A stretch of DNA of 33,701 nt from IMG/VR virus record IMGVR_UViG_3300031673_000275, positions 1 through 33,701 of that record; one strand, 5' to 3'. Source of the stretch: a virus. The position numbers and the translations under genes were made by a program. Of the stretch, positions 9,631 to 33,701 are shown one piece after another. The notes beneath the pieces are model-generated. The model was given only the letters and a program-made list of their open reading frames with translations. It did no database searches and had not been told where the DNA came from. Position 1 is the first letter of the stretch; every line of letters starts with the position of its first letter.

Positions 9631-12600
9631 ATGTTCAAAGTAAAATTCGACATGACAGAGGGGCGCTACAGACGCGTAGCCAACCGTACTGCTGCGGTAA
9701 TGCGTCCACATAGCTCTTCTGCAGCTGCCCGTCGTCGTTACGGAACTGCTACCACAAGCGGAGCTCCTGGCCATATGCGTCGGGAGGCAGTAAGCTCCCT
9801 AACCAACGTGACTGCGCCTTCTCAAGCAGGCGCAGACATGTCTCAAAGGTACTCTCCAGTCTTCGAGCGAGCGGAAGATCCAACTATCGCCGAAGACTTC
9901 ATGCCCGCAGATCCCCAAACCCAACATAAAATATTCCGCAACCTCATCATGTTTGACCCCATCGCGGGACCTGCAACCGAGTACTGGAAAGACCTTGCGT
10001 TCAGCCAGAACGTTATCCTGAGCGGGATTGACGACAACGAAATCCTCGAGTTCTACCAAGACGCCATCGACGCGTCTGGTATTATTTCCGTAATGCCCAT
10101 GCTGCTGAGTGACTACCTCACGTTCGGCAAGTTTGTGTTCCACATGATCATGGACAAGCGCTTGGGCTACTGGACAGAAACTATCCCGCACGACCTCGAC
10201 TACGTGTCCATCAAGGTCTCCCCTATTCCGAGCTTGGATCCGATCATCGATATCCAACCGACTCAGGATATGCGAGAGTGGGCCATCTCCTCGGATGAAC
10301 GTATTGTCGCTCAGCGTCGTGACGTAGACCCAGTACTTGTCAGCCTTATGGCTGCTGGACGCCCAATTCCTCTCGCTCCAGAAAATACGATGTTCCTGCC
10401 CCGTCGCGTGTTCTCCACGGACTACTACGGTACATCGTACCTCACGCGTATAATGCCCTTCAAAATTTATGAGAAGGCTCTCCTTGATGCTAGCATCGCA
10501 GGAGCTCGTAGGCGCGCAGGCCCCCTCTGGCACATTAAAGTCTGGCCGGATGCTACCGATGTCGAAATGTCCGAGGTGCTCGATCTCTTCTTCGCTGCTG
10601 AAGAAGACCCTATCGGCGGCAAGGTCGTCACCCGAGAAGGTGTAGAGGTTATTCCTGTAGGGGGCGGCGCTGCTGACTTCTGGAAACTGTCCGATGAGTG
10701 GCAGTTCCTCAGCGAAGCCAAGATGAGAGCCCTTGGAATAAGCGAGACCTTCCTTTGTTTGGCGGGAGATACATACCTCCCGACAAAAGAACACGGAATC
10801 GTCCAGATTGGTGACCTAGGAGACGACGCAGAAGGTGTTGGAGACATTGCGCTAACAGTAGGGAGTGTCAAGGGTGCCGCTCCAGCGAAAAAGTGGAAGT
10901 ATAGTGGTTATGCTGACACTCTCCGCGTAATCACCAAGCGTGGATATTCCATCCAACCAACCTACACACACGAAGTCCTGGTACTCGACCAGGGTGATCT
11001 GGTGTGGCGGGAAACGCAGGACCTATCCATTGGGGACCTGCTGTGTGTTAGCTTACACGAGACGACGCGTGACGAGCCCCTTACGTTGAGTATACCGGAG
11101 TACCAAGACCATCCCCTGGCACGTAACACCAAGATGCCCACCAAGCCTGAGCAAATGACCCCGGTGTTGGCATTCATCTTGGGTCTTGTTGTCTCAGAAG
11201 GGTGCCATGATAGGTACCGCGTACGATTCTTCAATAGCGATACGAAGCTCAACGAGCACTATCAAGACCTGGTGCGTCAGGTGTTCAATCTTGACACTGT
11301 ACTGACTCCAACGTCGGGTGTTGGCGATCCCCTCGTCATCGGTGGCGTAGCGACAAAAACGACCAAGGTAAGCTACGAGGTGCTCATTCAAAGTAAGGTA
11401 GTCGCCAACTGGTTGTCCTATCTGGGGGTTATTCCCTCCACTGGCTACACCAAGAACAAAGAAGCCTCGTGGCACAAAGTAGTACCTTGGAGTGTTCTTC
11501 AGGCGGACCGTAAGTCGCAGCTAGCTTACCTAGCTGCTTACATCGAAGGCGACGGACGCGTTGATCTAGAAAACAACTCCGACATCGCGTTTTACTCACG
11601 CTCTACAGAAAACCTGTTCCAGCTCCAAGTGATGCTTTCCTCCTTCGGGATCGTGAGCACTCATATGGAGAAGTACCACCGTCTTTACGTGAGTCCGGAG
11701 CACGCAAGGAAGTTGCATGTTTTGGTTTCTCCCTACCTCGTCAGCAAATGCCCTGCAGAGGGGTACTTGGAAAGCGCGCATCCAGGTAGAACTACCGTCG
11801 TACCTGCTTCTTTTGTAGTAAACGTGCTGAACGACAGGTTCCTTAGGCAAGAGCACGACGGCACGTGGTTCCGTGACGACGACGACGATGAAGTATTCGT
11901 CCCCCGTGGTGGAACGATCTTCAATAACTATAGCCGCCGCAAGGGGTTCTCTTACGCATCCTACAGTGTAGGAAAATTTGATGACTACCTGTCGGCACTT
12001 CAGAAAATATCGATTTCCACTCACAGGAAGTTGATGGTCCTCCTTAACTCCAATTACCACTTCGAGCCTGTGCAACGCATTGAAGACGCAGGTAAAGCAC
12101 ATGTGTACGATATATGCATGGGTGATGGAGAGGCTCCGGTTTTTGAAGCAAATGGATTGCTAGTGCACAATTCGGGCGAGGCGAACTACAACAGCATGGA
12201 CATGATTCTGTCCACCTTCCTCGAGAAGGTGCGCGCTGTCCGTTCCCACTTCACCCGTAAAATCCTCATCGAGAAAATCTGTCTGCAGCTAGCACAGCTA
12301 CATGGGTTCCAGAAACGCTCTCAGGCAGACCTATCACATAGAATACGGACAAGCAGAAAGCTCAACAAGAGCTCGAGTCCTGAGTATCATCTCCCCACCA
12401 TTGAGTGGGATAAGCCCCTTTCTCCCATAGCAGACAGGGATTATCTAGACATCATGAACATGCTGGAAGAGAAGGGCCTTCCAATCCCTCTCCGCATGAT
12501 AACGCAGATCGCTGGGTTTGATTTAGACAAAGCTCTTGACTCATTCGATTCAGATTTGGAGACACAGAAAGTTGTTCTCGAGCATCGTCGTGCGCTGGCG

Positions 12601-13455
12601 CAGCTTAAGCAGCAGTACGGCTTCGATGAAACTGGTGCTTTTCAAGGAAGTGAGCTTGGAGATAGTGGCCTCGGTGGTGAGCTTCCTGGTGAGCTCCCAC
12701 TAGGTGAAGAGGGTGATATTGGGGGACTTGGAGAGCTCGGTGGCGAACTTCCAGCAGGTGAAGAGAGTGGCCTCGGGGAGCTTGGTGGAGGAGAGACTGG
12801 TGGAGGAGGAGAGGCTGCTGGAGCAGAGTTACCACCTGCTGCTCCTACACCTGGTGCTGGAGGTGGCTTTGGTGCTGATCTTGCGAAGCCTCGTTTCAAT
12901 GTAAAGCCTCTACCTGCCAAGCTCGTTGTTGGGAAAGCACGCATCAAAGCGGCCAACGATATTGTTAAAGATCTGAAGAGCGTACCTGTGTGGGACGCAG
13001 ACGGTGCCCTTTTTGGTATGACGCAGCGGCGCGTGGCAAAAATGCTAGATAGGATTGATCATACTGACCCTCGGCAAGATCGACGACAGGCACTTGCCAA
13101 CAAGCTACCCAACGAGCTTCGCCGCAAAGAGGGACTCGATTCCATGCAGGCTACCATGGTGCAGTATCTGGCCATCCGGTTAGGTTTTGTTCCTCCGGTA
13201 AAACTTCCTGAAGAAGCGTTCAATAGTCTTCGCAAGTTCATTGTCGATAGAATGGATGGCAACGGTCTCACGAAGGCGGTGAGTAACGAGATAGTTATGC
13301 TATCCAAGATCGCGGAAGCCGGTGGGCGTCGCAGTCAAAGTAGGCTTGCTGAATTCGTCAACCCTGTTGGTGTTATTCCTCGTTACGAAGGAATGCTTTC
13401 AGGCAGCCAAGTACTCACTGGCGTTGTTGACTCCAACCCATTCCTGAAATCTTAA
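9631..13455 (+). CDS. Portal protein precursor with in-frame intein
   Basis: This is a 1274-codon reading frame. The exteins (residues 1-375 and 848-1274, 802 residues after splicing) form a portal protein: TEYWKDLAF, the LLSDYLTFGKFVFHMIMD core, YGTSYLTRIMPFKIYEKALL, and EAKMRALGIS before the splice site are typical of phage portals in the position after terL. Portals form the dodecameric ring at the head vertex through which DNA passes. The N-terminus (VKFDMTEGRYRRVA) loosely resembles the recurrent tag. The C-extein carries a Gly/Glu/Leu/Pro-rich low-complexity stretch at about 1010-1081, then a further globular domain to the end. The ATG at 9631 has GAGG at 9622-9625. The intein is listed separately. 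Confidence 0.9.
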   Translation: MFKVKFDMTEGRYRRVANRTAAVMRPHSSSAAARRRYGTATTSGAPGHMRREAVSSLTNVTAPSQAGADMSQRYSPVFERAEDPTIAEDFMPADPQTQHKIFRNLIMFDPIAGPATEYWKDLAFSQNVILSGIDDNEILEFYQDAIDASGIISVMPMLLSDYLTFGKFVFHMIMDKRLGYWTETIPHDLDYVSIKVSPIPSLDPIIDIQPTQDMREWAISSDERIVAQRRDVDPVLVSLMAAGRPIPLAPENTMFLPRRVFSTDYYGTSYLTRIMPFKIYEKALLDASIAGARRRAGPLWHIKVWPDATDVEMSEVLDLFFAAEEDPIGGKVVTREGVEVIPVGGGAADFWKLSDEWQFLSEAKMRALGISETFLCLAGDTYLPTKEHGIVQIGDLGDDAEGVGDIALTVGSVKGAAPAKKWKYSGYADTLRVITKRGYSIQPTYTHEVLVLDQGDLVWRETQDLSIGDLLCVSLHETTRDEPLTLSIPEYQDHPLARNTKMPTKPEQMTPVLAFILGLVVSEGCHDRYRVRFFNSDTKLNEHYQDLVRQVFNLDTVLTPTSGVGDPLVIGGVATKTTKVSYEVLIQSKVVANWLSYLGVIPSTGYTKNKEASWHKVVPWSVLQADRKSQLAYLAAYIEGDGRVDLENNSDIAFYSRSTENLFQLQVMLSSFGIVSTHMEKYHRLYVSPEHARKLHVLVSPYLVSKCPAEGYLESAHPGRTTVVPASFVVNVLNDRFLRQEHDGTWFRDDDDDEVFVPRGGTIFNNYSRRKGFSYASYSVGKFDDYLSALQKISISTHRKLMVLLNSNYHFEPVQRIEDAGKAHVYDICMGDGEAPVFEANGLLVHNSGEANYNSMDMILSTFLEKVRAVRSHFTRKILIEKICLQLAQLHGFQKRSQADLSHRIRTSRKLNKSSSPEYHLPTIEWDKPLSPIADRDYLDIMNMLEEKGLPIPLRMITQIAGFDLDKALDSFDSDLETQKVVLEHRRALAQLKQQYGFDETGAFQGSELGDSGLGGELPGELPLGEEGDIGGLGELGGELPAGEESGLGELGGGETGGGGEAAGAELPPAAPTPGAGGGFGADLAKPRFNVKPLPAKLVVGKARIKAANDIVKDLKSVPVWDADGALFGMTQRRVAKMLDRIDHTDPRQDRRQALANKLPNELRRKEGLDSMQATMVQYLAIRLGFVPPVKLPEEAFNSLRKFIVDRMDGNGLTKAVSNEIVMLSKIAEAGGRRSQSRLAEFVNPVGVIPRYEGMLSGSQVLTGVVDSNPFLKS
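10756..12171 (+). mobile_element. LAGLIDADG intein in the portal gene
   Basis: This is a 472-residue intein. It starts at Cys (residue 376 of the precursor, CLAGDTYLPT, block A). Block B has T444-x2-H447 in PTYTHEV. The homing-endonuclease core has two LAGLIDADG-type helices: LAFILGLVVSEG with E523 and LAAYIEGDG with D641. Block F/G reads VYDICMGDG and then EANGLLVHN, followed by Ser848 as the +1 nucleophile. All residues needed for splicing (Cys1, His of block B, terminal His-Asn, Ser+1) are present, and both endonuclease acidic positions are occupied, so splicing and homing may both be functional. The insertion point, ISETFL/SGEANYNS, lies in a conserved part of the portal. Confidence 0.92.
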
Positions 13456-15007: not shown

Positions 15008-15017
15008 TTTAATTACG

Positions 15018-15056
15018 CCTGTCAACATTACCCCTTCAACAACGGCAGGTTTTTTG
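15018..15056 (+). terminator. Weak terminator candidate
   Basis: GCCTG and a later GGCAGG can form a short stem followed by TTTTTT, in the 71-base gap before the scaffold candidate. The stem is short and the loop is long, so this is a weak call. Confidence 0.25.
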
Positions 15057-15078
15057 CCAGCAACATCAGGAGAATGGA

Positions 15079-16776
15079 ATGAAAAAAGAAGCGACGAGGA
15101 CGTATAGGGATTTGAAGAGTCGAACGACTCAAAAATCCCGTGTGCGTCAGTACGATCGCATCCCGGGCGAACAATTCGATGCCGACCGGGCCCTCGACGA
15201 AGGCTACCTCAATGTAGAGGAAGTTGGGGGCATGGACGTGGCAGAGGAAGTTGACCCTGGTGATGTGGATGTAGTCACAGAGCTCGCACCTCCAGAGTTC
15301 GAGCCGGAAGCATCACAAGAACAAGGCTACCCTACAGAAATGTCTGATGAGATAGACGTGTACAAGGGTGGTGAAGATGAATCTGAGGAAGACGACGAAG
15401 AGGAGCAAGAGGACATGGACTACGAAGAGGGAATGGAAGTAAAAGACGAGGACATCGAAGCGGTATACTACGGCGACGAGACCCCACCGGAAGCTGATCC
15501 CTACTCTGACGAGGATGGTGATGATGGTAAGGTTGAAGCGTGTGATGGACGCGGTCCCAAAATGGAAGCCACGATGCTGAAGCGTTCTGAGGGCAGCTTC
15601 GCTGAGCGCCTTCGCATGGCTATGGATCCCAGCATGGCGGATCCCAGTGAAGAAGGTCTGATGTCTGACCTCGGTGAAGAGGTTGGTATGGAGCCAGAAG
15701 CTCCTGCTACGGAAGGTCCGTGCCCCGCTGGTTGTGAGCCTGTGACCACAGAGGAAGCTCCTCCTGCCGAAGACGAGGGTATCGTTGAGGTGGGCGAGGA
15801 TGAGGTGACGTTCCTCGACGAAGAGCCCAAAGAGGCTGCTGTGGAAGACGAGCCCGCAGAGGAAGTTTTCAGCACTGCTCCCGCTTCTGTAGAGGCAGCG
15901 GAAGAAGCAGGCGACGAGCCTGTGTATGAAACGCTGGGAAACATCGAAGCGTTGGCCGACGTCGGCACCGACCGTGTAGACCTCATCCTCACCCGCGAGG
16001 AGAGCGAGAACCCGCAGTACGTCGTTCTCGTGGATGGCGACCCCGTTGCCAAGGTAGCCCTCAGCGACCAGCCTGAGAGCCTGACCGCCGACCATGACCT
16101 GTTCATGGATGAGGACTACCCGAAGTTCGTGCTCGAGAGCGTGGACACCTTTGGTCTGCGGGAGACGCTGCAGCACGTCAACGCACGCTACTACACCGCC
16201 AGCGCTATGGAGGGTGAGGTAGCCCAGCAGATGCGTACTGCCGCTGTTCATGACCTCGAGGGTGAGCACCGTCAGCGTTTAGCTGAGATGAAAGATCAGC
16301 TGCTCAACACCGCGAACATCGTACTCGAGGGTTCCCTCAAGAACTACATCACGGACAACCCCCTTCGCGACTCCCTGGTGCGGCGCATGCGGTCCGTAAA
16401 TGTGGACGAGCGCGCCGCTTTGGACATCGTGGAAGCTGCTTTCCGTGAGAAGGGCAGCGACTTCTTCCGCGCCATCATCAAGAAAGCTGAGGAGTGGGTC
16501 GGCGCCCCGAGTGAGGTACTCGAGCATCACGTCAAGGAAATCACTCAGATGAATTACCGGCACCCCGGTTATTCCGCTGAGGGGGATGAGATTCCGATGG
16601 AAGAGCCTCCCGTGATCTCGGCGTCCTCGGTTCCAGCCAGCATTCCACTTCGTACGGTGGCGTCTGCACCACACGCACCGCAGCACAGTAGCTCCACGAG
16701 GGAGCAGTTGAAGCAGGAGCTCAACCTGCACGGGCTGCTCGTGCAGAAGTCTCTCGCTAACCGTCCTCAGCGCTAG
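15079..16776 (+). CDS. Large acidic protein, candidate head scaffold/core protein
   Basis: This is a 565-residue protein. The first 25 residues are basic; residues about 35-300 are dominated by Glu, Asp, Ala and Pro with little order expected; residues about 300-500 form a compact, mainly helical domain (VDLILTREES, FVLESVDTFGLRETLQHV, LLNTANIVLEGSLK, FFRAIIKKAEEWVG). A Ser/Pro linker and a short C-terminal helix follow. Acidic proteins of this size placed between the portal and the prohead protease/capsid genes are typically internal scaffolds that are degraded during head maturation. No direct scaffold signature is seen, so the role is inferred from composition and order. A strong hairpin follows the stop. 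Confidence 0.85.
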   Translation: MKKEATRTYRDLKSRTTQKSRVRQYDRIPGEQFDADRALDEGYLNVEEVGGMDVAEEVDPGDVDVVTELAPPEFEPEASQEQGYPTEMSDEIDVYKGGEDESEEDDEEEQEDMDYEEGMEVKDEDIEAVYYGDETPPEADPYSDEDGDDGKVEACDGRGPKMEATMLKRSEGSFAERLRMAMDPSMADPSEEGLMSDLGEEVGMEPEAPATEGPCPAGCEPVTTEEAPPAEDEGIVEVGEDEVTFLDEEPKEAAVEDEPAEEVFSTAPASVEAAEEAGDEPVYETLGNIEALADVGTDRVDLILTREESENPQYVVLVDGDPVAKVALSDQPESLTADHDLFMDEDYPKFVLESVDTFGLRETLQHVNARYYTASAMEGEVAQQMRTAAVHDLEGEHRQRLAEMKDQLLNTANIVLEGSLKNYITDNPLRDSLVRRMRSVNVDERAALDIVEAAFREKGSDFFRAIIKKAEEWVGAPSEVLEHHVKEITQMNYRHPGYSAEGDEIPMEEPPVISASSVPASIPLRTVASAPHAPQHSSSTREQLKQELNLHGLLVQKSLANRPQR

Positions 16777-20864: not shown

Positions 20865-22037
20865 ATGCCCACGTTCTTGAAAACAGCCAAACGGGAGTTC
20901 GCCGTTGTCGACCTCGACGTTGCAGTCCTCGAGCGCATCCACGACGCGTGGGATGCTGAGGACTACGATGGGATGCTGCTGTTCTTAGACGAGTGGGCTC
21001 CCATGATCACTTTCGAGACTGCGAAAGAACTAATCAACAGCTTCGAACTTGAAGAGGAGCTTGGAGACCCCGCTACTATTGAAGAACGCTACGATCACGT
21101 AGACGATGTTTTCTACGATATAGAGGATGCACTCAACCGAGGCGACATTAAAACGCTCAACCGTAGGAGCGGCATCGCGAAAGTAGGTGGCCCTGAGTAC
21201 GCTGCTGGTAGAGATGGTCTGAAGTTCGGTTTGATTTTTCATGCCTCGAGCGCAGACCTGGAAGACCTACGCGAACGTTTTCCGAAAAAATCTGTTGATA
21301 CAGAGCCCACCGTGGAAAAGAGCGAGGACGAGGAGATGGCTGAAGAGATTTCTGAAGCTGCTCAAGAAGTGGAAGAGGAGCTCGGCAAAGCTGCCTCTGT
21401 TGTTGTAGCTGCTCCGCCTCCATATCCACCAGCGTGGTGCATGCAGAAGGCGATCAACCTAATTAAGTCGGTGGACTTTGGGTACGGCAAAGACGCAGGC
21501 ATCATTGGTCTCGAGCAGGCAGACCATCTACTGGATACCTGTGAGCTTCCCAACGGTAACCTCAAGATGGCGATCCGTTATTTTTTGACAGACCGTCATC
21601 GATCTCGAGAATTCATCTACGGAACCGAGAGTGGCTCCAACGTCGGGGCACTTTCAGAGCTTATTAACTCAGTGGAGCTTCCAGTGGCTGCTTCAGCGAA
21701 GGTTTCTCGTTTCGTGACTTTCCGTGGTGCGTTGTACGAGCTCGTACCTCCCACTGTGGAGGCGCTCGAGCGCACCGAGGAGCTCACTTCCAAGGTGCAC
21801 GAGGCATACCATCTGCCTCCCGGTAAGATGAAGGGCGTCAAGACCTGCACACCCAAGGACCAGAACGACAAGAAGCCGAAAGGCGAGCAGGTCTGGTGTG
21901 TATTCGACAGTCATGGAAAGCTGCGAGCTCGCTATAAAACGGAGACCGAAGCCAAGCGGTACAAGGTTTTCATGATCAGCCGTTACTGGTCTTCTGGGAA
22001 GGGCAAAAAACGGTCCGACCGTCCTACCAATAAGTAG
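20865..22037 (+). CDS. Multi-segment protein with internal recurrent tag
   Basis: This is a 390-residue protein. Residues 1-110 are acidic and helical; 145-175 is a Glu/Ala-rich linker; about 190-265 is a helical domain; the recurrent tag lies internally at 281-293 (F283, V284, F286, R287, G288, Y291). The C-terminal module around W344-C345 (GEQVWCVFDSHGK, then YKTETEAKRYKV) resembles short phage modules that end in a basic helix, and parallels the N-terminus of the protein at 28458-30875. The order suggests assembly from smaller parts. It is the last gene before the non-coding leader of the capsid genes. Confidence 0.82.
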   Translation: MPTFLKTAKREFAVVDLDVAVLERIHDAWDAEDYDGMLLFLDEWAPMITFETAKELINSFELEEELGDPATIEERYDHVDDVFYDIEDALNRGDIKTLNRRSGIAKVGGPEYAAGRDGLKFGLIFHASSADLEDLRERFPKKSVDTEPTVEKSEDEEMAEEISEAAQEVEEELGKAASVVVAAPPPYPPAWCMQKAINLIKSVDFGYGKDAGIIGLEQADHLLDTCELPNGNLKMAIRYFLTDRHRSREFIYGTESGSNVGALSELINSVELPVAASAKVSRFVTFRGALYELVPPTVEALERTEELTSKVHEAYHLPPGKMKGVKTCTPKDQNDKKPKGEQVWCVFDSHGKLRARYKTETEAKRYKVFMISRYWSSGKGKKRSDRPTNK

Positions 22038-22367
22038 TTTGCGTTCTGTGTTTACGGAACGTGAAACTACTTACTATATGATGAGCAACTGAGCCAGCAA
22101 CATTATTCCCTCCTGCTCAGCATCACCAACATTATTGAACAGTCGTGCGACGTGACACATCACAACGCGGGCACGAGTGCTTTGTCAGAGATTCACGTAA
22201 TATTACTTTCCAACCAAGATTAATTTCGAATCTCAGCAAGGACGAAGCGGCAGCATTACTCCCGTGATAAATGTGGCGCACTCGTGCCCTCTCAGAGAAC
22301 GAGATGTCACAGTGTGGAACGTCGTGAATATCAACAGCGGTACAAACGTATTCATGGAGGATAGAAA
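22038..22367 (+). promoter_or_regulatory. Non-coding leader with nested inverted repeats upstream of the capsid genes
   Basis: This is a 330-base gap with no credible gene. It holds a promoter candidate (TTTACG 22051-22056, 17 bases, CTATAT 22074-22079), two copies of CAACATTATT (22098-22107, 22127-22136), and a nested stem set. The clearest stem is a perfect 12-base inverted repeat, GGGCACGAGTGC at 22169-22180 and GCACTCGTGCCC at 22278-22289. Inside it are TCACG/CGTGA (22193-22197, 22263-22267) and a hairpin AGATT/AATCT (22217-22221, 22229-22233). Outside it are ATC/GAT and GAC/GTC pairs and CGACGT/ACGTCG (22148-22153, 22319-22324). GGAGG at 22356-22360 is the ribosome site of the next gene. 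A structured mRNA leader, or a DNA-level recognition site, is likely. Confidence 0.6.
22051..22079 (+). promoter_or_regulatory. Sigma70-like promoter candidate for the capsid genes
   Basis: TTTACG and CTATAT with 17-base spacing lie at the start of the 330-base gap. A short inverted repeat, CGTTC/GAACG (22042-22046, 22057-22061), surrounds the -35 box and could be an operator. Consensus similarity only. Confidence 0.35.
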
Positions 22368-23150
22368 ATGCCGCTTCTTCCAAACGCGTCCGTAAAGACC
22401 AAGTATGACTTTACAAGGTCGCGCTTCGAGTGGAAACGCCAGTTCGAAGTGTCTCCAACCACGAATATCCTCGAAGAGGGTAGCGTGCTTACGCGTCTTC
22501 CCGGTCCTGCAGGCAACGAAGTGGTCCAACTGGGCCACGCTGCTGCCATGGCAGCTGGGGAGCGTCCTTGTGGTCTCTCTCTGCAATCTCGCATCACTGC
22601 GGACACCTTCGCGGATGTTCGCAACTACACCGTGCCTGCAGCACCTGGACCGTACACGATCCAGCTGCCGCACGCCAACCTAGTGCAAGCTGGCGCTCTG
22701 CTGGCTGAAGCCTATGTATGGGACAACACGGCTGCTGCTGCGCTGACCGTCATCGCACACGTCGCGCCTCCCGTACCTGCCGCTACTCAGGTTGACATCG
22801 ATCCCGTAACGGGTCTGCTGGCCTTCAACGTAGCAGAGGCTGAGCACAACATCACGATCACCTACCGGTGGAACCTCACGGCCATCGAGCGTGATCTCAT
22901 CCTGCGGCAGAGTCATGTCAACCGTGGCGCCGAAGATCAGTTCGGTCTCATGACGGTTGGCTACGGCAACTGCCTTGTTTACACCAGCATGTACGAGTGC
23001 GATCAGGCGTACACCGTGGGGGCACAGTTGACCCTCGGTGCAGGCGGTATGTTCACGCTCGGTGGTGTAACTAACTTTGGTCAGGTTGTATCTGTACCTA
23101 CTCCGGGTGACCCCTACCTCGGCGTAGAGTACATCAGCCCGACCACCTAA
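22368..23150 (+). CDS. Capsid decoration-like / minor head protein
   Basis: This is a 260-residue protein. The ATG at 22368 has a perfect GGAGG seven bases upstream. The sequence is strand-rich, with many Ala, Thr, Val and Gly (GLSLQSRITADTF, LLAEAYVWDNTAAAALTVIAHV, a GAQLTLGAGGMFTLGG end), typical of beta-barrel virion proteins. Placement directly before the major capsid gene, in the same short transcription unit, is where decoration or head-stabilising proteins often lie. No family is identified with certainty. It carries no recurrent tag. Codon use appears as GC-rich and regular as in the capsid gene, which fits high expression. Confidence 0.85.
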   Translation: MPLLPNASVKTKYDFTRSRFEWKRQFEVSPTTNILEEGSVLTRLPGPAGNEVVQLGHAAAMAAGERPCGLSLQSRITADTFADVRNYTVPAAPGPYTIQLPHANLVQAGALLAEAYVWDNTAAAALTVIAHVAPPVPAATQVDIDPVTGLLAFNVAEAEHNITITYRWNLTAIERDLILRQSHVNRGAEDQFGLMTVGYGNCLVYTSMYECDQAYTVGAQLTLGAGGMFTLGGVTNFGQVVSVPTPGDPYLGVEYISPTT

Positions 23151-23176: not shown

Positions 23177-24313
23177 ATGTCTAAAGTGTTTTCAGGAAAA
23201 GCTGCTCTTCGGGATCGGAGAGGCAACGACATCGCCAGAGGACCTGCTTTCAAGGTCATGCCCCGCACGGGCAGCGTAAGCTACTCGGAAACCACCCCCC
23301 TCGTGGGTGCGGACGGGTCTTACAACCAAGACAGCGTCTCTGGACTCATCAACCAGATGGATGCCATCGTCAAGCAAGCTCGCGCAGGCGAGATTCACCG
23401 CGACGAAGGTCAAGCCATCACCACTTCTTCTTGGAGCCAACAGGGTCACATCGTGCAGGCTGCTCTCGCTGAGCAGCGTCCCGCTGAGGGTGGTCCCTTC
23501 CAGGTTCTGGGCGAAGTGTTCACAGACTCCGTGGCAGAGACCATGGGTCGTATGGGCTTCACCAACAAGGTGTTCGCTCAGCAGGACGTAGCCGAAGGTG
23601 GCACGGCCCGTATCCGCATTCGTCAGAAGGACGTAACGTCCTGGCTGATGCTGTCGGATGGCCACACCATCGAGTCTCTCATCCGCCAGAAGTACATCTA
23701 CCCTCGGGGCTACAACCTCGAGACGTTGGTGCTGATGGAGGAGGCTGAGATTCATGAGGCTGGCGCGCAGATCATCGAAGAGAAATACAACGACGCCCTC
23801 GAGGCGACGATGGTTCGTGATGACAACATCACGAAGTTCCTCCTCGACCAAGCTGCACCCACTGACAATGACGTAATCGCGTTCAACGCGTTCACGCCTC
23901 AGGTCTTCGTTACCCTGCGTAACCAGATCTGGCAGTGGAGCCTCCCCGTCCCGCACGCCTTGATGGCGATCGACCTGTGGGACGACCTCTTCGCGGATGC
24001 GGACTGGGCCAGGTGGTACTCGCCCATCGAGAAGCACGAGTTGGCCGTAGAAGGCAAACTTGGTCGTCTCGGTGACATCGAGCTCATCACCGACGGCTTC
24101 CGCTACGACACCTTGCAGGTTCTGCAACCTGGTGAGGTGTACTTCCTGTCTTCGCCCTCGACCCTGGGTGTGAAGGCAAACATGATCGCTCTGAACTCCA
24201 GTGTAGTGGACCAGCGCATGCTCGGAAGGGCTGTGCGCGGTTGGTTCATCTTCCTGCGTCAGGCGAGCGTGCTCGGCAATAGCCGGGGTGTCTCGAAGGG
24301 TGTTCGGCTCTAG
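23177..24313 (+). CDS. Major capsid protein (HK97 fold)
   Basis: This is a 378-residue protein. The ATG at 23177 follows AGAGAGGAG. Features of HK97-fold capsid proteins are visible: a helical, flexible N-terminal arm (residues 1-100), a long spine-like helix rich in Glu (LVLMEEAEIHEAGAQIIEE), a DLWDDLFAD segment, and the KLGRLGDIELITDGF segment that matches the G-x-x-G-x-hydrophobic signature of the C-terminal A-domain, then YFLSSPS. Normal length for the family. The N-terminal arm may be removed by the prohead protease, but no site is obvious. It shares a transcription unit with the decoration-like gene and is followed at once by a strong terminator. It has no recurrent tag. Confidence 0.88.
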   Translation: MSKVFSGKAALRDRRGNDIARGPAFKVMPRTGSVSYSETTPLVGADGSYNQDSVSGLINQMDAIVKQARAGEIHRDEGQAITTSSWSQQGHIVQAALAEQRPAEGGPFQVLGEVFTDSVAETMGRMGFTNKVFAQQDVAEGGTARIRIRQKDVTSWLMLSDGHTIESLIRQKYIYPRGYNLETLVLMEEAEIHEAGAQIIEEKYNDALEATMVRDDNITKFLLDQAAPTDNDVIAFNAFTPQVFVTLRNQIWQWSLPVPHALMAIDLWDDLFADADWARWYSPIEKHELAVEGKLGRLGDIELITDGFRYDTLQVLQPGEVYFLSSPSTLGVKANMIALNSSVVDQRMLGRAVRGWFIFLRQASVLGNSRGVSKGVRL

Positions 24314-24328: not shown

Positions 24329-24363
24329 CCCCCGGGGGAGTTTCGGCTTCCCCGGGGGTTTTT
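24329..24363 (+). terminator. Strong Rho-independent terminator after the major capsid gene
   Basis: CCCCCGGGGGAG (24329-24340) pairs with CTTCCCCGGGGG (24347-24358) over twelve positions with one G-U, closing a six-base loop, and is followed by TTTTT (24359-24363). This is a textbook intrinsic terminator. It separates the capsid genes from the tagged-protein cluster downstream. Confidence 0.92.
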
Positions 24364-24916: not shown

Positions 24917-26188
24917 ATGGCTCGTCTCAACAAAAAAGCTCCGCAGACGGTCACGTACCAAGGACTGTCCTACGAACTCGTAGAACGGAAGGCCACCGTG
25001 CCCAAGACGGTCACCTTTAAGGGTGCTAAGTACAAGCTCGTTTCCGCAAATGAAGAAGCCATTCCAGAGTTCATGCAGGGTATACAGGAAGAATATAGCG
25101 ACAAAGGTGGATTTAAAACTCACTACGAGCACAGGTTGGCACCCTCCGAAGAGAACATCTACGTTCGCATGTCGACCGACGACTACGCTCTGTTGTTAGC
25201 ATTGCCAGAAGCTACATACGGTCCAGTGCGTAACTTTCTGCAGCGAGCTAGCAAAAAGAAGTTGGAGTCTGGGCGTGCCGAAGTAATGGCGTCTGAAACA
25301 GAAGTATCAGATGTTGTAGCTGCTTTGGAAGACTTCCTTGAGGAAGATGACGGAGCTCCAGCTTCCATCGCCCACGCGCAGGATATGCTGGCCACGTGGA
25401 AGCGTAACTACATCGTTCCTGACAAGCCGCTGTCCAAGCCACTCCCTACCTACAAGTCTGAGCTTCCCCCAAGCTCGAACATTCGTATGTTCCACTACAA
25501 GGGTGCGCGGTACGTACTGGTGCGGGCAGACGAACAAGATCCACAAGAGCGTCTGCTGGAGGAGTACCAAAAGGAAAACGAGTTCTTCGCAGACGAACTT
25601 TTCGATAAATATGTCAGCAAGGTGAGTCGAGCAGTACAGGACGCTACCCCTCTGGGTGAAACGCGAAAACAGATCGACACCCTGGTTTCTGCAGTAACCG
25701 CTATGAGACAGTCCGTGGAGAAACCGGGTGGTGCTAACTGGGAAGGAAAATTTGAGGACGGAAGTGCGGGAATGCGTAAGCTGACCGACATTCTCTATAA
25801 AGGCCACGAGAAAGACCTTGTTTACGTTCTTAATACTCCCGGTGCTATTGACGACATGATTGCAAAGTACGTAAGCTCGCTTAACGAGTTCAAGAGCAAC
25901 CTGGACACCGCAAACATGCACTACAAGGCAGCGTTGGATCATGCTGTTCAAAAAGGCTGGACGAGCAAGTGGGCGGCTACCCGTGAAGCCTCCAAGCTAA
26001 GAAAAGAGATTCTTAGCAAGTTCTATGGCGTCAAAGATCCAGACAACTTCATCAAAGATTTCTACCACGTTCCGAAAAATCGTCCAGAGAAAGTTCCTGG
26101 GAAGGGCCCAGAGCAAACAGAGGCCAGCGTAAAGACGGCACCACGCACCATTCGTTTCAAAGGTGTCCAGTACGTTCTTCAGGGTTAA
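24917..26188 (+). CDS. Protein with four copies of the recurrent tag
   Basis: This is a 423-residue protein. Tag copies lie at residues 9-23 (Y14, G16, Y19), 29-42 (F34, G36, Y39), 188-202 (Y194, G196, Y199) and at the very C-terminus, 409-423 (F414, G416, Y419). The first two are in tandem. Between them are two largely helical domains, about 50-175 and 205-400. There are no cysteines or catalytic motifs. AAGAGGAA precedes the ATG at 24917. The arrangement of tag pair, domain, tag, domain, tag looks like a concatenation of tagged units, or a multivalent protein. The next gene starts two bases after the stop. Confidence 0.85.
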   Translation: MARLNKKAPQTVTYQGLSYELVERKATVPKTVTFKGAKYKLVSANEEAIPEFMQGIQEEYSDKGGFKTHYEHRLAPSEENIYVRMSTDDYALLLALPEATYGPVRNFLQRASKKKLESGRAEVMASETEVSDVVAALEDFLEEDDGAPASIAHAQDMLATWKRNYIVPDKPLSKPLPTYKSELPPSSNIRMFHYKGARYVLVRADEQDPQERLLEEYQKENEFFADELFDKYVSKVSRAVQDATPLGETRKQIDTLVSAVTAMRQSVEKPGGANWEGKFEDGSAGMRKLTDILYKGHEKDLVYVLNTPGAIDDMIAKYVSSLNEFKSNLDTANMHYKAALDHAVQKGWTSKWAATREASKLRKEILSKFYGVKDPDNFIKDFYHVPKNRPEKVPGKGPEQTEASVKTAPRTIRFKGVQYVLQG

Positions 26189-26190
26189 GG

Positions 26191-26622
26191 ATGGCAACCA
26201 AGCTACCAACGACGGTCACTTTCCATGGCCGCACGTACAAACGGGTGGAGGCTCAGCAGGTCTACTCAGTGTACGTTGGTACTATTTACGCGGAAGAGGA
26301 CGCACCCTACGACAACCCTGCTTACGGGGTGGGTGTTGACGTCGGACCCACGTCAACAGTAGCGATTTTGGCAGCCCGCGATCTAGATAAGTTGAAGAGG
26401 GAGCTTCAGGAAGCTGAGGCCAGTTTGCTGTTTGGACTTGAAAAAGCGCCCACCGATTGGACGTTCCGTTTGTTTACCGACATCAAAGCCAAGTCTCTTC
26501 ATGAATTTGAGCGCCAGGTTCGTGAAGAGTGGAACAACGCGGAAGAGATTCTACGAGATATTCACTTGGGCAAAGCTGTGATGCTCGAAAACGTCATCGA
26601 CAAAGTGCTTATGGGTGTGTGA
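26191..26622 (+). CDS. Hypothetical protein with N-terminal recurrent tag
   Basis: This is a 143-residue protein. Residues 6-20 (P6, V9, T10, F11, H12, G13, Y16, V19, E20) are the tag. A strand-rich part with several Tyr and Gly follows (VYSVYVGTIYAEEDAP), then a helical C-terminal half. Its TGA overlaps the next ATG (26620-26624), so it is translationally coupled with the DUF5661-like gene. Function is unknown. Confidence 0.8.
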   Translation: MATKLPTTVTFHGRTYKRVEAQQVYSVYVGTIYAEEDAPYDNPAYGVGVDVGPTSTVAILAARDLDKLKRELQEAEASLLFGLEKAPTDWTFRLFTDIKAKSLHEFERQVREEWNNAEEILRDIHLGKAVMLENVIDKVLMGV

Positions 26623-27578
26623 TGAAACGTGGATTTACCCTAGAAGAAGCTGAGCGCATCGCAACAGAGATAGGCGTCCACTGGCCAGACGTGCTGTTCA
26701 ACGTCGAGCAGTTCCGTAAGGGTCTCGACGTAGAGCTCGAACACGGTAAGCGATCACCAGATACCAACGTTACCAACGACGACCCGCTGGCTACTGGAAA
26801 AATAGCGCTGGCGCATTTGCTCGAGAAGGCCAACTACTACGAGCTCCTCGCGCTTTTGGAGAGTGGCGCTGTGCAACTTGAACAGGGCCCAGAGATGACC
26901 GTCAACGAACTATCAGATGCGGTTGAAAGCTACGACCGCACTGTTTCATTTGCGTCCACCAAAGGGGAGCAGGAAAAAATCATGGAGCACCCAACCTACA
27001 TCAAAGTAGCAGGCCACCTTTACCAACTGGAGCCCGAAGAGGCCCCAACATCCATTCGTGTGAACGGCTTCGAGTACGACCGGGTCGACGCTCCCGAGGA
27101 GCCCGCAGCACCTACCTTCATTAAAGTGAAGGGGATGCTCTTCCGCCGCGATGACAGCTTGGTAGAAGCTGCAAAAAAGGGCAAGAAGAAGGGCAAGAAG
27201 GACGACAAGAAGGCGCCCAAAAAGTCCCCTAAGAAGGACGACAAGAAAGACGACAAGAAGGGAAAAGCCAAAGGGAAGGGCGATAAGAAGGACGACGACA
27301 AGAGCAAGGGTAAGTGGAGTACACTTCCCAAGGGCTGGACGAAAAAGTCGGCCAAGTCTTTCTGGAATTCCATTGGTGGCTCCGTCACCGAATGCAAACG
27401 CAAGCTCAAAGACGCCAAGGAAATCGACAACACTGGCACTACTTGCGCGTCGCTGAAGGATCTCATGGAAGGTGATGGCTGGCGTAAGGAGCCCAAGAAA
27501 AAGAAGAGCAAGAAAGCTTCCACGGGCGCTCCACAATTCATCACGTACAAGGGTGTACGTTTCCAACTGGACGACTAA
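26622..27578 (+). CDS. DUF5661-like protein fused to four recurrent tags and a Lys-rich linker
   Basis: This is a 318-residue protein. Residues 1-95 match my recollection of DUF5661 (FTLEEAERIATEIG, FRKGLDVELEHG, TNVTNDDPLATGKIALAHL), a small phage domain of unknown function. Three tags follow at 124-137, 143-157 and 164-176, then a Lys/Asp-rich linker (about 183-232). A small domain with LPKGWTKKSAKSFWNSIGG and a later CASLKDL segment is another recurrent phage module. A fourth tag forms the C-terminus (304-318). An in-frame ATG at codon 121, with AGGA upstream, begins exactly like a stand-alone tagged protein, suggesting a fusion or an internal start. The ATG at 26622 is chosen because it overlaps the upstream stop; an in-frame start at 26529 lies within the upstream gene. 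Confidence 0.85.
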   Translation: MKRGFTLEEAERIATEIGVHWPDVLFNVEQFRKGLDVELEHGKRSPDTNVTNDDPLATGKIALAHLLEKANYYELLALLESGAVQLEQGPEMTVNELSDAVESYDRTVSFASTKGEQEKIMEHPTYIKVAGHLYQLEPEEAPTSIRVNGFEYDRVDAPEEPAAPTFIKVKGMLFRRDDSLVEAAKKGKKKGKKDDKKAPKKSPKKDDKKDDKKGKAKGKGDKKDDDKSKGKWSTLPKGWTKKSAKSFWNSIGGSVTECKRKLKDAKEIDNTGTTCASLKDLMEGDGWRKEPKKKKSKKASTGAPQFITYKGVRFQLDD

Positions 27579-28045: not shown

Positions 28046-28456
28046 ATGTCACATCCACGCTACATTGAAGTGCACGGCCAGCTGTACCGGATAGTCGAAG
28101 CTGAGCAGGAAGCTCCCATGACTTTCCGTCAGGCTATCCAAGCGCTGAGTAGCCTGTACACGAAACTGTTTGCCGCCGCAGATATAGAACCTGGACTCAA
28201 CTCCATCCTTGAGGCAGTCAAGTTTGCTCGTTCCGCTGCACAGGACGTGGAAAAGAAGCTACCGGATGCCCTACGCCCTGGTACTGGTTCCCTGTCGAAG
28301 TGGAGCCTTAGTGATGAGTTCATGGACACCCTGCAGCAGTTGAACAAAACGTACAAGAAGCTGCACCGTGCGTGGGTGGCAGCTGACCGCCGCAAAGCCA
28401 TGCAACAATTCCTTGCTGCTCGAGGTATCCACACCCCCGAGGCGCACCGGGCATAA
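28046..28456 (+). CDS. Helical protein with N-terminal recurrent tag
   Basis: This is a 136-residue protein. Residues 4-18 (P4, I7, V9, H10, G11, Y14, I16, V17, E18) form the tag, in the I-x-V-x-G form, ending Y-x-I-V-E-A. A helical body follows (FRQAIQALSSLYTKLF, DTLQQLNKTYKKLHRAW). AGGAG sits upstream of the ATG at 28046. No catalytic motif. The layout resembles the preceding gene, so the pair may be distant paralogues. Confidence 0.82.
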   Translation: MSHPRYIEVHGQLYRIVEAEQEAPMTFRQAIQALSSLYTKLFAAADIEPGLNSILEAVKFARSAAQDVEKKLPDALRPGTGSLSKWSLSDEFMDTLQQLNKTYKKLHRAWVAADRRKAMQQFLAARGIHTPEAHRA

Positions 28457-28457
28457 A

Positions 28458-30875
28458 GTGGCTACTCTTCGTATAGCACACCTCGTTAGATGCCGGGACC
28501 AGGACAAGAAACCTGGGCGCAAGTACCCTGTTAGCGAACAGGAATACTGTTTGTGGGACAAAGCCAAAAAGAAAATTCTGATGGCTGGGCCTAAGAAAGC
28601 TGTCCAAGAGCACGAGAAGGCTGTTCAGTGGTACAAACGGCAAGGAACCATCAAATACAAAGGTGCTTCTTACGTTCCAGTTTACTTCGGTTGGTACTTA
28701 ACAGCAGCTTCTGATGAAGAGCGAAAAGAGCGCGCAGAGTTTGCTAAAAAACATAAACAGCTAAAAGAAACTGACCCCGAGGCTGCTGCTAAGTTCTTCT
28801 ATGAGCATAGGCTAGAGTACCAACGAGAGTACAAAAGAAAGCAGCGGGAAAAAAATATAGAAGAGCAGCTAGCGCAGCTAAAAGAAACTGATCCTGCTGA
28901 GTATGCACGGCAGAAGGAACGAGCAGAGTACAAAGCCAAGCGCAAGCAATTAAAAGAAACTGACCCCGAAGCTGCGGCTAAGCTCCTCCATAAGCATAGG
29001 CTAGAGTACCAACAAGAGTATAAAAGAAAGCAGCGCGAAAAGCAGATAGAACAGCTAAAAGAAACCGATTCTGCTGAGTATGCACGGCAGAAGGAAATTG
29101 TAGAGTACAAATCTAAACGCAGGCAACTACGGAAAACTGATCCCGACGCTGCTGATGAGCTCCTCCGTGAGCGTAACCGAGCGTGGCAACTAGAGTACAG
29201 GAGAAAGCAGCGCGATGAGCAGATAGAGCAGCTAAAAGAAACTGACCCTGCTGAGTATGAACGGCAGAAGGAACGCACAGAGTTCCTATATAAATACAAA
29301 CAACTAAAAGAAACTGACCCCGAAGCTGCTGCTAAGCTCCTCCATGAGCATAGGCTAGTACTGGACAAACGCAAACGAGAAAAAGAGCAATTAAAACGTA
29401 AAGAAATTAAACAGCAGAAAGAACGCGCTAAGCTCGCTCCAGCAAAAGAAGAACTGCGTAAACGTATGAGAAATCGTACAATTAAGCAGTTTCCTAAAGA
29501 TAAAAGTCAACCACCCGTTCCAGAAGAAATACAAGAGGCACTGAACGACATCGGTCTTACTAAAGATGTCTTAAAAGAACGAATGGAACGACGCCAGCAG
29601 GGGCTAGACCCCAACACTGCCGTTCCGGTGGCGCAAGAAGAAGTACAAGAGGAAGTAAAGGGCATCGGTTTTGCTAAAGATATCATAAAAGAGCGGATCA
29701 AAGAACGCAAGCTAAAAAGGCAGCAAATGAACGCCAATGTTGTAAAATATAAGGGAGCCTACTATAGGTTAGCAGCCACACACGAGAAGGATGTCCAGTG
29801 GTATAAGCGACAAGGGGACGCCGACGAAGACCTCGATTTAGCAAAAGAAACTATAAAAGATCGTATTAAAGAACGACAGCGAGGAGATATCCCTCAACGC
29901 ACCCCTTTAGAGCTCGTTCCTAGACGTATTCTTACGAAAGAAGAGCTTTTATCAAAGAAAAAAGAGCTTTTAGAAAAACTAAAAGAGACGGACCCTGAAG
30001 CGTACGCGAGAGAGCAAACGGAAGAACGACTGACCGAGTTCGTCAGAGAACAAATGGCAAAGTCACGTGAGCATCGTAGGCTGTTGCCCACAAAAAAGAT
30101 ACTAAGACAACGCATGCAAGAACGCGAGCAGCAAATGAACGCCAATGTTGTAAAATATAAGGGAGCTTACTACCGCCCGGTCGAAGCTCTTCAACAGCAC
30201 TTCGACCCAAGCAAACGTCTTCCTGTTGGGAACAACGTAGGCGACGCTGCGTCATCTGAGTTTCAGGTGATGCAGATCGACATGTGGCTCGAGGGTGCAG
30301 AGAAGGAATTCGACGCCTTGGTGGCCTCTCCTGGAATGGAGAAGTACGACGACAAGCGGAAGGCGATTGACGCCTACATCACCAAAGCACGGGCGGCGCT
30401 CAAGAACCTCAAGGCGTTGACGGGGCGCATGGGCGACAAAATCGAAAGTCAACAAGAAACCATTGCACGGTTTCAGAACGCTTTAAAGGAACTTCAAACG
30501 AAACGCGCCGCGAGTGTGCAGAGGACTAGTGAAAAAATGGCAACTCAAGAAAAAGCTCCAGAGATGGTGAAATACGCTGGGCACCTCTACGTGCTAGCGG
30601 AAGACGAAGAGAAGGAAGAAGAGAAGGAAGATAAAGAAGAGGAGCAAATGGAGGGGGAAGCTGGCGAGGAGATAGAATTGCTAGACGCCCTCAAGGGCCA
30701 CTGGCAGACCATCCTCGACAAGCTTCCCGACGACCTTGAGGTGGACGAGGAGTTCGAGGCGGCGCTCAATGGCATCGATGAAGTCATCGCCGTGATGGAT
30801 AAAATCCATGCAGAATACGCCGATGAGGCAGCTGGTGAAGAAGAAAGTTCAGAGGAAGAGCCTGAGGGTGAGTGA
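28458..30875 (+). CDS. Long repetitive charged coiled-coil protein with four recurrent tags
   Basis: This is an 805-residue protein from the GTG at 28458, right after the previous stop; an earlier in-frame start would overlap that gene. The N-terminus has an EYCLWDKAKKK module and a tag at 64-75. Residues about 100-310 are tandem 59-63-residue units (QLKETDPEAAAKLL, then EYKRKQREKQ, then ETDPAEYARQKER). A second repeat, about five copies of a K-[DE]-x-[IL]-[KR]-x-R-[IM] helix, spans about 330-555. Further tags follow at 428-438, 564-574 and 703-713. The C-terminus is a helical domain with long Glu-rich runs. Base and codon use (AAA, AGA rich) differ from the neighbours in the repeat part. It probably forms elongated helices; function is unknown. 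Confidence 0.82.
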   Translation: MATLRIAHLVRCRDQDKKPGRKYPVSEQEYCLWDKAKKKILMAGPKKAVQEHEKAVQWYKRQGTIKYKGASYVPVYFGWYLTAASDEERKERAEFAKKHKQLKETDPEAAAKFFYEHRLEYQREYKRKQREKNIEEQLAQLKETDPAEYARQKERAEYKAKRKQLKETDPEAAAKLLHKHRLEYQQEYKRKQREKQIEQLKETDSAEYARQKEIVEYKSKRRQLRKTDPDAADELLRERNRAWQLEYRRKQRDEQIEQLKETDPAEYERQKERTEFLYKYKQLKETDPEAAAKLLHEHRLVLDKRKREKEQLKRKEIKQQKERAKLAPAKEELRKRMRNRTIKQFPKDKSQPPVPEEIQEALNDIGLTKDVLKERMERRQQGLDPNTAVPVAQEEVQEEVKGIGFAKDIIKERIKERKLKRQQMNANVVKYKGAYYRLAATHEKDVQWYKRQGDADEDLDLAKETIKDRIKERQRGDIPQRTPLELVPRRILTKEELLSKKKELLEKLKETDPEAYAREQTEERLTEFVREQMAKSREHRRLLPTKKILRQRMQEREQQMNANVVKYKGAYYRPVEALQQHFDPSKRLPVGNNVGDAASSEFQVMQIDMWLEGAEKEFDALVASPGMEKYDDKRKAIDAYITKARAALKNLKALTGRMGDKIESQQETIARFQNALKELQTKRAASVQRTSEKMATQEKAPEMVKYAGHLYVLAEDEEKEEEKEDKEEEQMEGEAGEEIELLDALKGHWQTILDKLPDDLEVDEEFEAALNGIDEVIAVMDKIHAEYADEAAGEEESSEEEPEGE
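28758..29378 (+). repeat. Tandem coding repeats, period 177-189 bases
   Basis: Units begin near 28758, 28947, 29124 and 29301 with variants of CARYTAAAAGAAACTGAYCC, giving periods of 189, 177 and 177 bases (63, 59 and 59 residues). The fourth unit is truncated. All units stay in frame. DNA similarity is still visible between units, so the expansion is fairly recent. Confidence 0.8.
29721..29764 (+). repeat. Direct repeat copy 1 encoding a start-like tag segment
   Basis: This 44-base segment recurs at 30129-30172 with a single mismatch; the first 38 bases are identical. It encodes MNANVVKYKGAYY, a tag with an in-frame ATG. AAAAAGG lies six bases before the repeat's ATG at 29727. Confidence 0.85.
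30129..30172 (+). repeat. Direct repeat copy 2
   Basis: This is the second copy of the 44-base segment, 408 bases downstream of the first and in the same frame. Its ATG at 30135 has no good ribosome binding site, unlike copy 1. Confidence 0.85.
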
Positions 30876-33239: not shown

Positions 33240-33701
33240 ATGGCCAAGAAGCCATTCCCCACAAAACGTCTGTTGTACAAGGGAGCGTTCTACGATGTCG
33301 TAGATCTGCCGCCTACCCTTATGTACAAGGGGGCCTTCTACGACGCTGTACAGGTGTCTAAGTTCAGGTTTGGAGCGCTACCACCCAACAAAATAAAGGG
33401 CCTCGAGAAACTAGTCAAAAAATACGGTCCTGATGCTGCTGATGAGTTTACACCACCTGACCAGTCGGTACCTGATGAAGAGGCGAAAAAGGGTGAGGAG
33501 CAACGGTGGAAGTCCACACCAGAGAAGAAAGACAAGCCGGAAGGGGAAGGGCGGTTTCCGGGGGTAGACAAAGAAATACTTCTGGCTGCCCTGACGCCCT
33601 TCGCTGCAAATTTAGTAGACGAAGCCAAGTCGATGCTCAGTAAGTATGGGGTAGCAGTATCTGGGAAAATAAACTTTGATGCTGATGAAGCTGATGGTGT
33701 G
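33240..33701 (+). CDS. Tagged protein cut by the window end (partial)
   Basis: The ATG at 33240 opens a frame that stays open for all 154 codons to the last base, so the gene continues beyond the window. Residues 11-20 (LLYKGAFYDV) and 27-36 (LMYKGAFYDA) are two tandem copies of the recurrent module, 16 residues apart and nearly identical in sequence. A Lys/Glu/Pro-rich linker (about 70-110) and the start of a helical domain follow. The upstream gene ends nine bases earlier. Function is unknown. Confidence 0.8.
   Translation, partial: MAKKPFPTKRLLYKGAFYDVVDLPPTLMYKGAFYDAVQVSKFRFGALPPNKIKGLEKLVKKYGPDAADEFTPPDQSVPDEEAKKGEEQRWKSTPEKKDKPEGEGRFPGVDKEILLAALTPFAANLVDEAKSMLSKYGVAVSGKINFDADEADGV

Follow-up and report, generated by a model that had tools for sequence, protein, structure and literature searches.

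What is the function of the nested inverted repeats that precede the capsid genes in the window analysed here, the whole stretch of 33,701 nucleotides of viral DNA? The preliminary description placed them in a region devoid of genes, and proposed a structured RNA controlling capsid expression, a small RNA, or a DNA recognition site such as a packaging site. The repeats lie within an intergenic gap (22038-22367, + strand), between an ORF coding for 390 amino acids, with no assignment (20865-22037), and the gene of a virion structural (decoration-like) protein (22368-23150, + strand; phrog_16710, E = 3e-7); the major capsid protein gene comes next (23177-24313, + strand; phrog_2522, E = 3e-41). 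The Shine-Dalgarno sequence of the structural-protein gene, GGAGGA (22356-22361, + strand), is conserved in relatives. In the alignment of the relatives' leaders, gaps are often of 1-2 nt, which makes a hidden reading frame less likely. The reported inverted repeat is part of a larger feature, which looks like a structured mRNA leader of 330 nt.

The perfect 12-base inverted repeat (22169-22180 / 22278-22289) was confirmed, as was the flanking pair CGACGT/ACGTCG (22148-22153 / 22319-22324), found at the base of the predicted fold. A further flanking pair, GTGAC-ATC/GATGTCAC, is softer, being unused in the fold predicted for the + strand, where CACAT (22156-22160) pairs with GTGTG (22312-22316) instead. 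Folding was evaluated against dinucleotide shuffles. For the RNA of 22148-22324 (177 nt) an energy of -60.2 kcal/mol was predicted, versus -44.1 +- 4.1 for the shuffles (z = -3.98), and none of 200 shuffles was as low. The opposite strand folds well too (z = -3.0), as expected for inverted repeats, and the DNA-strand fold is likewise below shuffles (z = -2.6). For the longer leader, 22085-22367, the fold is weaker (z = -1.87).

All elements of the fold are on the + strand. Hairpin 1 (22089-22120, CTGAGC/GCTCAG) comes first. Helix P1 is formed by a 5' arm, GCGACGT (22147-22153), continuing as the above CACAT, and by a 3' arm, ACGTCGT (22319-22325), with GTGTG as the partner of CACAT; the reported inverted repeat provides the two arms of P2 (22169-22180 and 22278-22289). 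These are followed inwards by helix P3 (22181-22246; TTTGTC 22181-22186 / GACGAA 22241-22246) and by hairpin P4 (22188-22234; GAGATTC 22188-22194 / GAATCTC 22228-22234), which has a large loop, while the short helix P5 (GCGG 22247-22250 / CCGT 22262-22265) belongs to the consensus of the relatives. The whole window gave no match at or above the gathering threshold in Rfam 15; under permissive settings, only chance matches to microRNAs were obtained for the leader region (E at least 1.2), and ARAGORN returned no tRNA or tmRNA. Similarly, no terminator-like site, such as an intrinsic terminator or attenuator, was found on either strand of 22038-22367. This last result bears on the possibility that a separate noncoding RNA is produced from the leader by processing: an excerpt of PMC8545117 describes such a precedent for a jumbo phage, the phiKZ p40 RNA, derived from a structured 5' UTR, and the compact fold would suit it as well, but with no terminator-like site in the leader we regard this origin as highly improbable.

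The best promoter candidate is a conserved element, TACTTACTATATG (22068-22080, + strand), which would start the RNA just ahead of hairpin 1. In the form (T/A)ACTTANNNTAT(A/G) it is present in 9 of the 11 leaders described below, at a similar distance past the upstream stop codon; as TACTTANNNTAT(A/G), it occurs in a single copy in the window and in a single copy in a relative that sits in a contig of 349,793 bases (the 350-kb relative). A perfect 10-bp inverted repeat, TAAGTAGTTT/AAACTACTTA (22031-22073), extends across both the promoter-like element and the end of ORF 20865-22037 with its stop codon; relatives in which this repeat is imperfect still keep the element. Directly past the major capsid gene a strong terminator-like hairpin is followed by TTTTT (24329-24358), an arrangement compatible with the capsid having a transcript of its own.

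A capsid search of IMG/VR identified 14 loci, corresponding to 11 distinct leaders once duplicates were removed; these share descent and represent about four lineages. All 11 directly precede the same structural-protein/capsid pair, the conserved place expected of a cis-regulatory leader, and in the relatives they span about 292-349 nt, with one (L011) cut by the contig start. Six are mutually alignable (the window, L003, L010, L005, L006 and L012). The other five (L007/L008, L009/L013 and L011) produce no blastn alignment to the window over the leader, and the structural proteins that they precede share 56-62% identity with the structural protein of the window.

The consensus of the six alignable leaders includes helices P1 (in two segments), P2, P3, P4 and P5, and 93.5% of the pair cells in the alignment are standard pairs. 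In these six sequences, and for a structure derived from the same alignment, changes on both sides were counted for 8 pairs, in 13 cells, versus shuffle means of 4.4 and 4.9; these values were reached by 1 of 500 and by none of 500 shuffles, respectively, and slid structures gave 1-3 pairs. P1 reads GCGACGT/ACGTCGT in the window, GCAGCGT/ACGCTGC in L010 and GCAGCGTT/AACGCTGC in L006, and P2 is rebuilt with different letters in L006 and L012. P3, P4 and P5 hardly vary (P3 is almost invariant among relatives, and P4 is paired in 100% of cells across the six leaders), and are neither supported nor contradicted by covariation. The stems persist via compensatory changes in the six alignable leaders, and such changes, typical of cis-regulatory leaders, are found for P1, for P2 and in a second leader described below. 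The preliminary description had made its proposal depend on covariation of the pairs in relatives, and this covariation is what was observed. The minimum folding energy is below that of shuffles in all 11 leaders, with individually weak values (mean z -1.3).

A repeated motif, (A/G)GC(A/G)ACATTA, overlooked in the preliminary description, is present in the capsid leaders; its variants have ATCA replacing ATTA, or G or T as the fourth base of CAACATTA. Under the strict form CA[AG][CG]AT[TC]A, 39 copies were found in the 11 leaders versus 0.8 expected, and none on the other strand; one leader (L011) matches the relaxed motif only. The density is 11.1 per kb in the leaders, versus 0.15 per kb on the + strand of the 350-kb relative, in which no other motif cluster of comparable density was found. 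AACATTA is the sole 7-mer common to all 11 leaders, including those that cannot be aligned with the window. ORF 61-525 contains a motif-like word at position 65, which was attributed to chance, as nothing matches near the corresponding place in the 350-kb relative.

The five copies in the window, all on the + strand, are irregularly spaced. Copy 1, AGCAACATTA (22096-22105), invariant in six leaders, is contained in the loop of hairpin 1, and is followed by ACCAACATTA (22125-22134). The large loop of P4 holds two copies, TAATATTAC (22198-22206), which is degenerate, and CCAAGATTA (22214-22222), and copy 5, GCAGCATTAC (22250-22259), is found in the P5 loop of the consensus. Throughout the leaders, many copies are located in hairpin loops, which reach 36 nt and frequently contain two copies at a distance of about 12-17 nt; the closing stems vary from lineage to lineage. 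Hairpins enclosing the motif outdo motif-keeping shuffles in 11 of 11 leaders (mean z 2.0). Single-strandedness of the copies is 0.73, versus 0.45 for AT-matched 8-mers; as compared to motif-keeping shuffles the excess is only modest (mean z 1.3, with two leaders negative), and loop accessibility is therefore partly explained by base composition. One short word (AGCAACAUUA) appears to be displayed several times in the loops of a folded RNA.

When the window and the 350-kb relative were scanned for the motif, the same arrangement was found in one other place, the leader of ORF 15079-16776 (15008-15078, + strand). Here a hairpin, GCCTGTC/GGCAGGT (15017-15050, + strand), holds CAACATTA in its loop (15023-15030), and a second occurrence, AGCAACATCA (15059-15072, + strand), abuts the Shine-Dalgarno sequence AGGAG; the Shine-Dalgarno copy of the window reads AGCAACATCAGGAG. 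One loop copy and one copy on the Shine-Dalgarno are present in all eight distinct relatives, 30-38 nt apart, and the start codon follows 18-23 nt after the beginning of the latter. A stem of 6-7 bp, for which three unrelated sequences were found, closes the loop. The three families cannot be aligned by sequence, and RNAalifold, run on a sequence alignment, misplaced the stem; the arms were compared directly. For (G/A)CCTGTC/GGCAGGT, GCTCGTC/GACGAGC and ACACACC/GGTGTGT the comparison with shuffled arms gave P values of 0.017-0.023, 0.004-0.009 and 0.016, respectively, with an imperfect arm-swap control, as the 5' arm of L092 pairs nearly as well with the 3' arms of the first family. In this first family a rival short hairpin, GGCA/TGCC, overlaps the stem, and is preferred by the minimum-energy fold of some members.

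The gene following the second leader (15079-16776, + strand) codes for an acidic protein of 565 amino acids, and is immediately followed by the gene of the head maturation protease (phrog_18299). No family match was found for this protein in databases, and the low quality of its predicted structure (mean pLDDT 48.5) allowed no fold to be assigned; the protein is possibly a scaffold. The homologue in L087 and L093 gave a two-piece match with a single in-frame TGA, which may reflect either a faulty assembly or a gene copy that is broken.

The two leaders allow different explanations of the motif to be compared. The capsid leader might simply protect an abundant mRNA, or provide a strong ribosome site, with the motif being structural and having no partner in trans. 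Capsid mRNA must be abundant, 5' structures do stabilise mRNAs, and all 11 leaders fold better than shuffles, but protection fails to explain why one word is kept in leaders that cannot be aligned, and on the Shine-Dalgarno of a short second leader; we consider it rather unlikely to be the whole explanation. Somewhat less probable still is that the repeats act as duplex DNA, bound by a transcription regulator or by a replication or packaging protein, with folding as a by-product. An array of repeats in one orientation, adjoining a candidate promoter, is a typical form of regulator site, and the DNA strand also outfolds shuffles, as reported above; the stems flanking the motif, however, change letters yet keep pairing, which DNA binding does not require, the spacing is irregular, and the word of the second leader is placed on the Shine-Dalgarno. 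The pattern of conservation, as read from the sequences, points to RNA rather than to a packaging site.

If the RNA is what is recognised, the partner could be a small RNA, or ribosomal RNA, carrying the complementary UAAUGUUGC, and the loops could be seed-pairing sites or translation enhancers. Display of a short word in loops would serve kissing contacts no less than the binding of a protein, and a copy beside the Shine-Dalgarno suits repression by a small RNA. On the other hand, the 350-kb relative shows no cluster of the complement, its reverse strand having at most two motif matches per 300 nt, and both the ATTA/ATCA exchange and the CAAC/CAAG variants would require G-U pairs or mismatches; an RNA partner is considered unlikely. 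The loop words, the kept pairing, the restriction to one strand, the occurrence in two head leaders and the copy on the Shine-Dalgarno argue for a trans-acting factor that recognises RNA. As for the functions initially proposed, there is anatomical support for a structured RNA that controls capsid expression, in the form of compensatory changes, strand-specific loop motifs, a constant place and a motif common to the second leader, whereas the small-RNA and packaging-site options gained no support.

The reading that we prefer, and consider fairly probable, is a translational operator distributed over two leaders and read by a trans-acting factor, the capsid leader being a multi-copy platform. 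According to this model, 22038-22367 would be transcribed as the 5' leader of the head-protein mRNA, and its RNA would adopt the long closed P1-P2 stem, preceded by a hairpin, with about five (A/G)GC(A/G)ACAUUA copies mostly single-stranded. The motif would be read by a factor, most likely an RNA-binding protein encoded by the phage, which in the second leader (15008-15078) would occupy the loop and Shine-Dalgarno copies and keep ribosomes from entering the acidic-protein gene, possibly a scaffold gene. The copies of the capsid leader are located about 110-270 nt upstream of the start codon, and simple occlusion cannot act there because none is found at its Shine-Dalgarno; activation, stabilisation or titration is more likely, and the platform would either stabilise or activate the capsid mRNA, or draw the factor off the second leader. 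The net effect would be the coupling of two head operons, with a presumed direction of control, and the putative RNA-binding partner is probably used by the phage to tune head-protein production. A more specific version is put forward tentatively, and is more doubtful than the operator itself: a lineage-specific head-assembly RNA regulon, in which a phage protein, perhaps a head protein, reads AGCAACAUYA loop words, represses the acidic scaffold-like gene via its Shine-Dalgarno and is titrated by the array in the capsid leader, so that the abundance of capsid mRNA sets the output of the upstream head operon.

Parts of this arrangement recall known systems. Sponge RNAs of the CsrB/CsrC type carry many copies of GGA in hairpin loops; many copies of one short word in loops would make the capsid leader analogous, but it belongs to an mRNA, displays AGCAACAUUA instead of GGA, and has no CsrA-like partner that we know of. 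In RNA phages, the coat-protein operator of MS2 has an AUUA loop, following an ANYA loop rule; the AUYA core found here resembles it, and may be taken as a lead only, since the capsid type is unrelated and the loops are far larger. Closer in anatomy is the gene 43 operator of T4 and RB69, used by the DNA polymerase gp43 for autoregulation, where a hairpin situated about 40 nt ahead of the start codon presents a short word in its loop and is combined with a contact overlapping the ribosome site (PMC3014915). The second leader, with its loop and Shine-Dalgarno copies 30-38 nt apart, has this anatomy, and the capsid leader, with copies remote from the start codon, does not; in addition, the gene 43 loop word is UAAC, whereas another word, loops of 20-33 nt and a head-related gene are found here, along with a multi-copy array in another leader. 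The T4 gene 32 leader, in which a pseudoknot and gp32 binding control an abundant protein (PMC3014915), is likewise a phage mRNA leader with structure and binding sites; the putative sites described here are discrete loop repeats, and no pseudoknot was found in a search of limited depth. The phiKZ p40 RNA is similar in being a structured 5' UTR RNA of a jumbo phage, and different in lying upstream of another gene, with no repeated loop word mentioned in the excerpt (PMC8545117).

The cultured phages having a recognisable capsid protein, such as BcepSauron, Lu11, NCTB and AD1, have genomes of about 195-314 kb, with a capsid identity of 26-30% among the matches listed; together with the contig of 349,793 bases, this indicates that the source is probably an uncultured lineage of the jumbo type. 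Two other features of the window were observed. The portal protein gene (9631-13455) carries an intein with a LAGLIDADG endonuclease domain. A 12-residue peptide motif, approximately hhhY(K/R)GxxYxxV, has at least 20 occurrences in 11 ORFs of the structural region (0.04 in shuffled proteins), including 61-525, 24917-26188, 26529-27578, 28368-30875 and 33240-33701. Many of these lie close to protein termini and some are arranged in tandem; the peptide may serve in head targeting or in processing.

Seven cultured jumbo relatives retain the gene order, but their gap before the structural-protein gene measures only 15-91 nt and lacks the motif. A nucleotide search of named phages gave no match, no capsid relative was found in bacterial and archaeal genomes, and profile searches with the structural protein and with the terminase produced no new contigs. 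IMG/VR matches to a conserved block, GACGAAGCGGCAVMATTA, outside the lineage had 0 or 1 strict copies nearby, looked coding-like and were rejected. When IMG/VR was scanned for a loop word combined with a Shine-Dalgarno copy, the matches with a hairpin and, suitably spaced, a long ORF were all within the lineage; the remaining ones, mostly coding-like by inspection, were discarded. No equivalent of the capsid-leader RNA was found described for dsDNA or jumbo phages in the open-access literature. From the short gaps without motif in cultured relatives, and the confinement of the IMG/VR cases, the leader looks like an invention of this uncultured lineage, as does the motif.

In tailed phages the proportions of scaffold, protease and capsid proteins are mostly explained by gene order and by the strength of promoters and ribosome sites. 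The motif provides a short, testable bait sequence for finding its partner, and a conserved RNA word common to two head-gene leaders would link them directly at the RNA level.
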